A DNA stretch of 64,000 bases, from positions 7,874,001-7,938,000 of the forward strand of contig NZ_CP022098.1 in the NCBI RefSeq assembly GCF_002305875.1, given 5' to 3'. This DNA comes from Cystobacter fuscus. Its GTDB lineage: Bacteria; Myxococcota; Myxococcia; Myxococcales; Myxococcaceae. The notes under the pieces were generated by a model. That model made no database searches. It was not told the origin of the DNA and saw only the letters and a program-made list of their open reading frames with translations. A program made the translations under genes and the position numbers. Below are positions 57,386-63,038 of the stretch, in pieces (within the stretch, counting starts at the first letter, position 1; each line of letters starts with the position of its first letter).

Positions 57386-58195
57386 CTACGCCGCGTCCCC
57401 CTCCACACGCGTGAGGCCCAGGGTCAACCGGTGTCCGCCGAACCAGTCGTCGATCATCCGCGTGAACAGCTCCGGGTACTCCACGTTCCAGGTATGGCCC
57501 GCGTCCGGTACGCGGGCGGCCCATGCGCCCGTAATCAGCCGGGTGAAGTCCGGCAGCTCGGCGCGGATCTTCGGATGCTCCCTCGAGCCCGCGACGGCGA
57601 GCACCCGATGGGCTCCACCGTCGAAACCCGAAGCCGCCCCCAGCGCCTCGGGAAGCCGCGAGCCGAGCAGCTCGTCGAACACCGCCTTCATCACCACGGG
57701 TGACGAGGTGCGCATGTCCTCGAGGAAACGCTCCATGTAGGCGTCGGGGATCTTCATCGCCCGCGCGCTCATCTGGAGCACCACCTTCGCCGTGCTCAGG
57801 CTCATCACGGCCGCGTACATCAGACGCATCACCCGAGGCGAGGAGTAGGGCCGGGTGGTGACTCCACTGACGATGACGTCGCCGCAGACCCGCGGATGAT
57901 GGGCCAGCAGCCGCAGGGCGAGGTGCCCCCCCAGGGACAGGCCCACGACACGGGCGGAGCCGGTCCGCGTCCGGGTGGCGATGAGCTGGGCGAGCTGCTC
58001 GGCCGTGTGGGCCAGGGACGCCCAGGGCGCGGCCGTGTTCTTGCCAAACCCCGGCAGATCCACCGCGAGGCAGTGGTAGCGGCTCGAGAGCGGCTCCATC
58101 TGGGCCTCCCACATCCAACCACTGACTCCCGCCCCATGCAGGAACAGGATGGACGGATGCCCCGGGTCCCCCTTCGTCACCAGCGGCATGTCCAT
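57386..58195 (-). CDS. Alpha/beta hydrolase
   Basis: 269 residues. Oxyanion region ILFLHGAGVSGWMWEAQM, nucleophile elbow VVGLSLGGHLALRL (GxSxGG) near residue 90 and a C-terminal histidine (RVPDAGHTWNVEYPELFTR) form the triad. Substrate unknown. The first ATG is chosen; a second, two codons later, is equally usable. The gene converges on the CDF transporter with only 9 bases between stops and no terminator, so the two may interfere. Divergent from the ArsR-methyltransferase gene. Confidence 0.85.
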   Translation of the reverse strand: MDMPLVTKGDPGHPSILFLHGAGVSGWMWEAQMEPLSSRYHCLAVDLPGFGKNTAAPWASLAHTAEQLAQLIATRTRTGSARVVGLSLGGHLALRLLAHHPRVCGDVIVSGVTTRPYSSPRVMRLMYAAVMSLSTAKVVLQMSARAMKIPDAYMERFLEDMRTSSPVVMKAVFDELLGSRLPEALGAASGFDGGAHRVLAVAGSREHPKIRAELPDFTRLITGAWAARVPDAGHTWNVEYPELFTRMIDDWFGGHRLTLGLTRVEGDAA

Positions 58196-58265: not shown

Positions 58266-58296
58266 TTGCTATGGGACACCGGCATCGATATATCGA
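58266..58296 (+). promoter_or_regulatory. Promoter with palindromic operator before the met operon
   Basis: TTGCTA (58266-58271), 17 bases, TATATC (58289-58294), each 4 of 6 to consensus. A perfect 12-base palindrome TCGATATATCGA (58285-58296) covers the -10 box, an ideal site for a dimeric ArsR-type repressor. A second, shorter inverted repeat TCGAC/GTCGA follows to 58306. The predicted start is only a few bases before the ATG at 58308. Binding by the adjacent regulator is inferred. Confidence 0.55.
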
Positions 58297-58307
58297 CATA
58301 CGTCGAG

Positions 58308-59264
58308 ATGCTCGAACTGACTGAAACCTTCAAGGCCCTGGGAGATCCGACGCGGCTGCGCATCCTGCGGCTCGTGGGAGAGGCGCGCCTCAACGTGTCC
58401 GAGGTGGTGTCGCTGGTGGGAGTGGCGCAGTCGTCGGTGTCGCACCACCTGACGAAGCTCAAGGCGCTGGAGCTCATCCGCGAGGAGCGCCAGGGAGGGT
58501 TCACCTATTACTCGCTGATGGTGGATGAGAAGGCGCCGCTGTGGCCGCTCATCCGCCTGGCGAAGGACGCGCCCGACGAGCACGGCGACCTGGCGCGGCT
58601 GACGGAGCTGCTGCAGCGCCGGGAAGACGCGCTCACGCTCAACGAGAAGCTGCTCGAGCCGGGCCAGTCCTGGCGGCTGTGGGCCTCGGCGCTGGCGAGC
58701 CTCCTGCCGCCGCTGGACGTGGTGGACTTCGGCTGTGGCACCGGCGTGCTCACGGTGGAGCTGGCGCGCTGGGCGCGGCACGTCACGGCCATCGACCACA
58801 ACCCGGCCGCGCTGGACAAGGCCCGCGCCGAGGCCGGGCGCCTGGGGCTGCGCAACATCACCTTCCTCGAGGCCGACCTCAAGGCGCTGCCGCTCGAGAG
58901 CGGGGCGCAGGATCTGGTGGTGCTCTCCCAGAGCCTGCACCACGTGAACGCGTGCGAGCGCGTGCTGTCCGAGGGAGCGCGGCTCTTGCGGCCCGGCGGG
59001 CGCATGGTGGTGCTCGAGTTGATGCCCCACGACGAGCAGTGGGTGCGCTCGCGCCTGGGCCACCAGCACCTGGGCTTCGAGCCCGCGGCGCTCCAGAACG
59101 CGATGCGCGCGGCGGGGCTCGAGACGCCCACGCTGGTGGCCGCGCCGCGTGACGCCGCGTCTCCATTCAAGGCCTTCCTCCTCACGGGCACGCGCCCCCT
59201 GGCGCCGGCCCTGCTGCCCCCCGCCCCCCTTCGTCCCTCTTCCCTCGCCCCCAGAGCCCCATGA
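58308..59264 (+). CDS. ArsR-family regulator fused to SAM methyltransferase domain (SahR-like)
   Basis: 318 residues. N-terminal winged helix of ArsR type: LTETFKALGDPTRLRILRLV, then VSLVGVAQSSVSHHLTKLKA (recognition helix). No metal-binding CxC motif is seen. From about residue 130 a class I methyltransferase fold follows: VVDFGCGTGVLTVELARWAR (SAM loop) and LPLESGAQDLVVLSQSLHHV. The same architecture, as I recall it, is that of SahR, which senses S-adenosylhomocysteine and controls methionine-cycle genes. Its stop overlaps the next start (ATGA), and that gene is metH, supporting this. Enzymatic activity is possible but unproven. Confidence 0.82.
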   Translation: MLELTETFKALGDPTRLRILRLVGEARLNVSEVVSLVGVAQSSVSHHLTKLKALELIREERQGGFTYYSLMVDEKAPLWPLIRLAKDAPDEHGDLARLTELLQRREDALTLNEKLLEPGQSWRLWASALASLLPPLDVVDFGCGTGVLTVELARWARHVTAIDHNPAALDKARAEAGRLGLRNITFLEADLKALPLESGAQDLVVLSQSLHHVNACERVLSEGARLLRPGGRMVVLELMPHDEQWVRSRLGHQHLGFEPAALQNAMRAAGLETPTLVAAPRDAASPFKAFLLTGTRPLAPALLPPAPLRPSSLAPRAP

Positions 59265-60325
59265 GCCGGCCCCACCACACCGCCCAGGAACTCGAGCAGC
59301 TCTTCGCCCAGCGCATCGCCGTGCTGGATGGCGCCATGGGTTCCATGGTCCAGACCTATCCGCTCACCGAGGCGGACTTCCGCGGCGAGCGCTTCAAGGC
59401 GCACCCCAAGGATCTCAAGGGCAACAACGATCTGCTGTGCCTCACGCGGCCCGACGTCATCGAGGACATCCACGCGCGCTACTTCGCCGCGGGTGCCGAC
59501 ATGGCGGAGACGAACACCTTCAGCGGCACGTCCATCGCCCAGGCGGACTATGAGCTGGGCTCGCTCGTCACCGAGCTGAACGTGGCCGCGGTGGCGTGCG
59601 CCCGCAGGGCCGCGCTGGCCGCCGAGGCCGCCACCCCGGGCCGGCGCTGCTTCGTCGCCGGGGCCATCGGGCCGCTCAACCGCACGCTGTCGATGTCGCC
59701 CGACGTCAACCGCCCCGACTACCGCGCGGTGACGTGGGATCAGGTGGTGGAGTCCTACGCGGAGCAGGTGCGCGCGCTGCTGTCGGCCGGAGTGGACGCG
59801 CTGCTGGTGGAGACCATCTTCGACACGCTCAACGCCAAGGCCGCGCTCTTCGCCATCGACGCCTGTTTCGAGGAGCTGGGCACGCGCGTGCCCGTCATGG
59901 TGTCCGTCACCATCACCGACGCCTCGGGGCGCACGCTGTCCGGACAGACCATCAGCGCGTTCTACCACTCCATCCGCCATGCCCGGCCCTTCAGCGTGGG
60001 CATCAACTGCGCGCTCGGCGCCAGGGACATGCGGCCCTACATGCAGGAGCTGGCGCGGATCGCCGAGTGCCATGTCACCTGCTACCCCAACGCCGGCCTG
60101 CCCAACGCGTTCGGCGGCTACGACGAGACGCCCGCCGACATGGCGAACTCACTGAGCGACTTCGCCCGGCAGGGCTGGGTGAACATGGTGGGAGGCTGTT
60201 GTGGCTCGACACCGGACCACATCGCCGCCATCGCCTCCGCCGTGTCGTCCTTCGCGCCTCGCGCCGCGATTGCCCCCACACACACCATGAGGCTCAGTGG
60301 TCTCGAGCCGCTCGTCGTCCCCTAG
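59261..60325 (+). CDS. metH1: Methionine synthase, homocysteine-binding subunit (split MetH N-part)
   Basis: 354 residues, corresponding to the first domain of E. coli MetH. Homocysteine methyltransferase barrel: [14 protein letters not shown] near residue 22, then [20 protein letters not shown]; zinc cysteines in [13 protein letters not shown] (about 247) and [13 protein letters not shown] (about 311). The chain ends with a normal stop instead of continuing into the pterin domain. The next gene supplies the rest after 22 bases. Co-translation with the regulator through an ATGA overlap. Symbol given only as descriptive name for the split part. Confidence 0.9.
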
Positions 60326-60332
60326 CCCGATG

Positions 60333-60347
60333 AAGGAGGACACCGCC

Positions 60348-60350
<3 letters not shown>
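60333..60350 (+). promoter_or_regulatory. Ribosome binding site deciding the start of the second MetH gene
   Basis: AAGGAGG (60333-60339) stands eight bases before GTG (60348-60350). Two in-frame earlier starts (ATG at 60330, GTG-like at 60297) lie inside or before this site and have no Shine-Dalgarno of their own. GTG 60348 is therefore the likely start. Confidence 0.75.

Positions 60351-63038
<2,688 letters not shown>

Follow-up and report, generated by a model that had tools for sequence, protein, structure and literature searches.

What controls the methionine synthase operon of Cystobacter fuscus, and through which DNA site? Within the window, the whole 64,000-nt stretch of contig NZ_CP022098.1 analysed here, the first-pass annotation had described a perfect 12-bp palindrome lying over a -10-like box, just before a winged-helix regulator gene that itself leads a methionine synthase operon. 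It had proposed that the palindrome is the operator of an autoregulated, SAH/SAM-responsive loop of the SahR kind. Both descriptive statements were confirmed: the palindrome at 58285-58296 overlaps TATATC at 58289-58294, and domain profiles identified an ArsR-methyltransferase gene followed by metH1 and metH2. The features of the locus are as follows.

58266..58271, + strand: -35-like hexamer TTGCTA, read from the sequence, 17 bp before TATATC
58284..58307, + strand: operator-like element ATCGATATAT-CGAC-ATACGTCGAG, abutting the ATG at 58308 (conserved block, matrix score)
58285..58296, + strand: perfect 12-bp palindrome TCGATATATCGA, comprising the left arm and part of the spacer region, off-centre in the element (sequence, symmetry axes)
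58289..58294, + strand: -10-like hexamer TATATC, inside the 24-bp element, read from the sequence
58308..59264, + strand: fusion of an ArsR-type winged helix with a class I methyltransferase domain, 318 aa, SamR/SahR-like, presumed autorepressor (Pfam HTH_5 and Methyltransf_11/25; NCBIfam HTH_metalloreg; tree)
59261..60325, + strand: metH1, homocysteine-binding module of a split methionine synthase (S-methyl_trans, 1.2e-93; matches the N-terminal part of metH profiles)
60330..63038, + strand: metH2, pterin-, B12- and activation modules (Pterin_bind, B12-binding, Met_synt_B12)

An ArsR-methyltransferase gene leads a split metH operon

Judged by their domain profiles, metH1 and metH2 together constitute a split cobalamin-dependent methionine synthase. 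The regulator stop and the metH1 start overlap (ATGA), and the metH2 open reading frame, listed from a GTG at 60297, was assigned the ATG at 60330 as start by our own choice. The regulator was detected (E 1e-40) in 30 of 79 genomes sampled from the order and in 88 of the 96 genomes of the family. Its locus was long enough for its neighbour to be seen in 101 of 123 cases, some genomes giving several loci, and metH1 lay immediately 3' of the regulator in all 101. Motif I of the methyltransferase domain reads DFGCG[TS]G in 23 of 24 myxobacterial proteins and DLGCGTG in the remaining one.

On the minus strand, at ~57386-58195, an alpha/beta-hydrolase-like gene (every NCBIfam match below cut-off) diverges from the regulator, ~90 bp from the operator-like element; it could share the control region of the regulator.

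A conserved 24-bp element abuts the regulator start codon

The window has a G+C content of 68.5% and contains 32 perfect 12-bp palindromes, two of them with 8 A/T, so that a 12-bp palindrome is by itself ordinary here and the unusual feature of this one is its A+T content. Allowing up to two mismatches gave two matches in the window, against 0.49 expected, a number reached in 12 of 100 shuffles. In the 12.35-Mb genome, the palindrome occurs exactly once, with a single one-mismatch place at 9178995.

Upstream DNA was collected from 86 regulator loci, of which 85 could be placed, giving 76 distinct blocks, the window's included. One block (L199), with the element 32 nt before the start, was misregistered by the script and dropped, leaving 75 blocks counted; by eye it fits. 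Another locus (L231) was missed by tblastn, and its genome (G092) does have the site. In the 75 blocks, ATCGAYRTAT-N4-AT-N4-CGAT or a close variant of it immediately precedes the ATG of the regulator gene or overlaps it, and across the 76 blocks the distance from the element to the aligned start was 24 nt in 61, 22 nt in eight, 21 nt in six and 32 nt in one. Column information, calculated over 33 weighted clusters, did not exceed 0.22 bit from -34 to -18, reached 1.0-1.7 bit for TTG at -16 to -14, and amounted to 0.7-0.75 bit in the two columns flanking the element and 1.1-2.4 bit at its fixed positions. The TTG near the -35-like position was the strongest kept block 5' of the element in the relatives. 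TTGnnn and TATnnn are spaced by 17 bp in the consensus; TTG is shifted two bases farther away in the window and the two relatives closest to it (L003, L194, L195), where it again lies 17 bp from TATATC.

The best symmetry axes of the aligned element, counted from its first base, were 11.5 (7.66 of 12 pairs) and 7.5 (7.28 of 12), located 5 and 1 bp to the right of the palindrome's own axis at 6.5, which was not among the eight best. The 12-bp palindrome was therefore dropped as the operator; from the aligned sequences, it is probably an off-centre part of a longer switch, the conserved unit extending over 58284-58307. The arms showed no covariation beyond column make-up, which predicts 7.93 pairs for axis 11.5 and 7.17 for axis 7.5, so close to the observed counts that the symmetry is a property of the consensus rather than of correlated changes. 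Of the 75 blocks, 60 have GAT at offset 13 and 69 have it at offset 21; the only other offsets with GAT are 3 (22 blocks) and 5 (one block). ATC-N10-GAT was present in either of two registers in 66 of the 75 myxobacterial blocks, and the outer ATC...GAT in 69. The window's element is among the nine with ATC-N10-GAT in neither register, and its 3' end is GAG, not GAT.

A scoring matrix was built from the 75 blocks, with the window's site in the training set and 23.6 as the lowest training score. The window's site scored 29.8 on the + strand and 32.0 on the - strand, compared with 7.0 for an overlapping place and 2.4 for the best non-overlapping place in the window, while 22 loci of the same genome, chosen for partial pattern matches, scored at most 21.7. 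A scan of this genome with up to three mismatches returned 122 + 121 matches on the two strands; since the reversed control already gave 50 + 43, such loose matches carry little meaning. Only two places had zero mismatches.

Occurrence of the element at methionine-cycle genes

A degenerate pattern, ATCGAYRTAYNNNNAYNNNNCGAT, derived from the regulator promoters alone, was searched in the 96 genomes of the family. It matched in 84 of them, and the reversed pattern in 0 of 96; none of the eight family genomes that lack the regulator gave a match. The match is located at the regulator gene in 81 genomes. In the present genome (G000), G124 and G125, the site at the regulator has GAG at its end, and for this reason the pattern matches them only at a second place; the regulator-bearing genomes with no match (G073, G049, G084, G095) carry near forms of the site.

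Seven sites lie away from the regulator: at metH2 in three genomes (G113, G091, G116), whose metH2 are 80-87% identical to the window's, at a patatin-like gene in three, and in G083 before a gene for a trans-sulfuration-type enzyme and a homoserine-dehydrogenase-like gene (best NCBIfam matches 1.6e-113 and 3.4e-84, both below cut-offs). When 30 ahcY and 30 metK loci were scored with the matrix, a single degenerate site (29.4) emerged, in G068; metK and ahcY are neighbours in that genome, and both of its loci include the site, which lies ~80-100 bp before metK (L148:1399-1422). Sites at methionine genes outside the regulator operon were thus confined to five genomes. A shorter operator pattern gave 14 sites in 13 of 29 genomes, 13 of them at the regulator. 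The remaining one (L180; G087:C30:803-818), away from the regulator gene, is absent among the matches of the longer pattern.

In the present genome, the matrix scan found no site at ahcY (L129, best -2.2), metK (L157, -5.0) or metF (L273, 2.0), compared with the lowest training score of 23.6. Recurrence at other methionine-cycle genes, the check put forward in the first-pass annotation, accordingly holds for a few relatives (metH2, the trans-sulfuration pair, metK-ahcY) and not for the genome's own ahcY, metK and metF.

Before its own ahcY, this genome carries instead an SAH riboswitch (RF01057; L129:2969-3039, minus strand, 67.8 bits), so the cycle has a separate route of SAH control in this organism. 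The riboswitch is an RNA element, unlike the element described here, and none was found in the window, where the Rfam matches at the gathering threshold were six tRNAs only. Seven of the 30 ahcY loci of the family have an SAH riboswitch. The combination with a regulator of this kind is not new, as Table 1 of PMC4239095 already counts SahR/SamR together with SAH riboswitches in Pseudomonadaceae and Xanthomonadales.

Placement of the regulator relative to SamR and SahR

SamR is an ArsR winged helix fused to a methyltransferase domain, and the regulator in the window has the same architecture and lies beside metH1 and metH2. In a tree of 43 proteins, whose rows include a few upstream codons added by the script, 24 myxobacterial proteins formed one branch with the Rudaea protein (L181) and L274, with support of 99/97; the value was 98 when three long-branched rows were removed. 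The SamR side of this tree is represented by L181, from Rudaea's order, and the metH1-linked L274, the published Xanthomonas SamR not being among the named rows. The first-pass label, SahR kind, needs refining, since the protein groups with metH1-linked SamR-like proteins.

Outside the myxobacteria, ArsR-methyltransferase fusions adjoin metH1 in Rudaea and metH, metF or metK in eight genomes. In the phylum of G104, reached via a Deferrisomatales record and comprising 148 genomes, ten longer matches were found, before ahcY (eight), metK (one) and metH1 (L274). Rudaea's order is Lysobacterales in the NCBI taxonomy, which we take to be the Xanthomonadales of the SamR paper, and 54 of its 61 genomes encode a SamR-like protein. 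Among the 30 of these 54 loci that were fetched, ATC-N10-GAT-N5-GAT precedes the gene in all 30 (background, 43 of 2781 windows, operators included) and metH1 is next to it in 29, the remaining locus being too short. At 19 outside loci, ATC-N10-GAT was found near the start in 13 and ATC-N10-GAT-N5-GAT in five, against 48 and 8 of 1042 windows. The longer geometry occurs in L181 and L274, and also in the SahR-type L184 (metF), L276 and L280 (ahcY), that is, in 3 of 17 SahR-type loci, so geometry by itself cannot tell SamR from SahR. On tree and gene order, we file the regulator as putatively SamR-type.

According to PMC4239095, SamR is a distant homologue of SahR, with samR co-localized with metH1 and metH2. 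Its operator is a palindrome of 24 bp that shares ATC-N10-GAT with the SahR motif of gammaproteobacteria, its predicted targets include metB, hom and metK, and SAM is suggested as its effector. SahR is described there from alpha-, delta- and some gammaproteobacteria, with a 20-bp palindrome as operator. SamR is reported there from Xanthomonadales only, and Table 1 is without any myxobacterial group. A search of the open-licence literature found no paper on ArsR-family control of methionine synthase in Myxococcus xanthus.

Unlike the SamR operator, the myxobacterial element has arms of the form ATCGAYRTAT, with one inner ATC/GAT triplet usually broken, and in most genomes of the family it occurs once, at the regulator gene. 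Of the SamR targets, trans-sulfuration/homoserine-dehydrogenase-like genes are preceded by a site in one genome and metK in one. The likeness to SahR lies in a related protein, predicted autoregulation and methionine-cycle targets, and in ATC-N10-GAT, which nine of ten loci in the phylum of G104 have, as does Halospina. Against the 20 bp of the published SahR operator, the conserved myxobacterial element spans 24 bp with its outer arm at offset 21, an arm that the SahR-type L184, L276 and L280 also show. SahR-type genes also differ in their neighbours, standing at ahcY or metK in the phylum of G104 (except the metH1-linked L274) and at metF or metH in the alphaproteobacterial type, and they fall on other branches. 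For ahcY, the core SahR target, a site was found in one family genome, before the metK-ahcY pair of G068.

A change of methionine synthase and a second element in the genome

The metH1 behind the regulator is of two kinds, ~73-100% and ~38-46% identical to the window's, with the regulator at 54-100%; two very different metH1-metH2 types thus follow the same regulator and operator-like element. On the regulator tree (24 myxobacterial rows), one change suffices to account for the two kinds. This suggests that the methionine synthase changed while the regulator and operator in front of it persisted.

Most operons with the second kind of metH1 are flanked divergently by a patatin-like gene, whose best NCBIfam hit (RssA, E 8.2e-13) falls below cut-off. 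In G000, G124 and G125, this gene is found elsewhere, with neither regulator nor metH adjacent, yet with a full 24-bp site. In the present genome, this second full element (L082:4995-5018, genome 9178994-9179017) lies ~80 bp before the patatin-like gene and scores 36.1 and 33.7 on the two strands, with both arms near the consensus. On the plainest reading, the regulator operon appears to have moved away and left this operator in place. We offer only tentatively, as a rather doubtful extension, that the operator left at the patatin-like gene when the regulator-metH operon moved in the genus took on, or kept, an active role in switching that gene; if so, a lipase-like enzyme would respond to the methylation state of the cell.

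Alternative explanations

The regulator might be a classical SahR, which represses the SAM cycle in response to SAH; in the version of the first-pass annotation, its operator would be the 12-bp palindrome. The two-domain protein, the metH neighbour and an operator over the promoter would all suit a SahR, as would ATC-N10-GAT near the start at 13 of 19 outside loci, among them L181 and L274, and the longer geometry of the SahR-type L184, L276 and L280. We nevertheless regard this as unlikely: the palindrome's axis is outside the eight best, the tree sets the protein with the metH1-linked SamR-like proteins and apart from the other two branches (99/97; 98), and the genome's own ahcY has no site and is under an SAH riboswitch instead.

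A metal-sensing ArsR repressor, with the metH link a chance of gene order, has in its favour a DNA-binding domain above the cut-off of the NCBIfam metalloregulator ArsR/SmtB model. This domain contains no Cys in the window protein and no conserved Cys in the 24 myxobacterial proteins (Cys at positions 1-5 of that comparison belongs to upstream codons added by the script), and a metal sensor with Cys ligands was rejected on this ground. The fused methyltransferase domain and metH1 next to the regulator in 101 of 101 loci also speak against such a role, which we consider very improbable. It is slightly less credible still that the conserved block is coding, the true start lying upstream and the block encoding the N terminus of the regulator. 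In the window, the frame is indeed open upstream to an ATG at 58149, but an in-frame stop lies within 160 nt upstream in 65 of 76 blocks, and in at least 20 blocks a stop lies three codons before the start, inside the element. Moreover, the block varies in frame (offsets 24 and 22) and also precedes unrelated genes, and coding was rejected on these grounds.

Proposed mechanism and implications

We consider it likely that a SamR-type ArsR-methyltransferase repressor has 58284-58307 as its operator and controls its own gene together with metH1-metH2. This reading rests on the conserved element and its fixed place, its recurrence before methionine genes (five genomes), the gene order and the kinship of the protein. 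Counted against it are the atypical copy in the window, arms that do not covary, sites at methionine genes outside the regulator operon in just five genomes, the genome's own ahcY, metK and metF with no site, and a geometry that extends beyond the SamR branch. The autoregulated loop put forward in the first-pass annotation is supported, with an ArsR-methyltransferase gene at the head of a metH operon and a strongly conserved operator-like element over a -10-like box, but the exact site, the family label and the regulon need correcting.

SAM is the substrate and SAH the product of cellular methylation. From its sequence and position, the 24-bp element is very probably bound by the regulator encoded just behind it. 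In the pathway we propose, a regulator dimer would bind the element through its winged helices, with ATC...GAT as half-sites. As the element spans the region from the -10 box to the start codon, the bound protein would exclude RNA polymerase and act as a repressor. The methyltransferase-like domain, whose motif I is intact, would serve as the sensor of SAM or SAH as ligand. A signal for methyl-group recycling would cause the protein to release the DNA, and methionine synthase would be made. The transcript would be expected to have a leader of a few bases, because 9-13 bp separate the end of the -10-like box from the ATG.

This reading would extend SamR-type control of methionine synthase from the Xanthomonadales, for which PMC4239095 reports it, to a myxobacterial family in which 88 of 96 genomes have the regulator. 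The extension brings with it a defined predicted operator, in a promoter that packs -10 box, operator and start codon together, and the question of whether SAM or SAH is the ligand of SamR would become testable in a laboratory myxobacterium.
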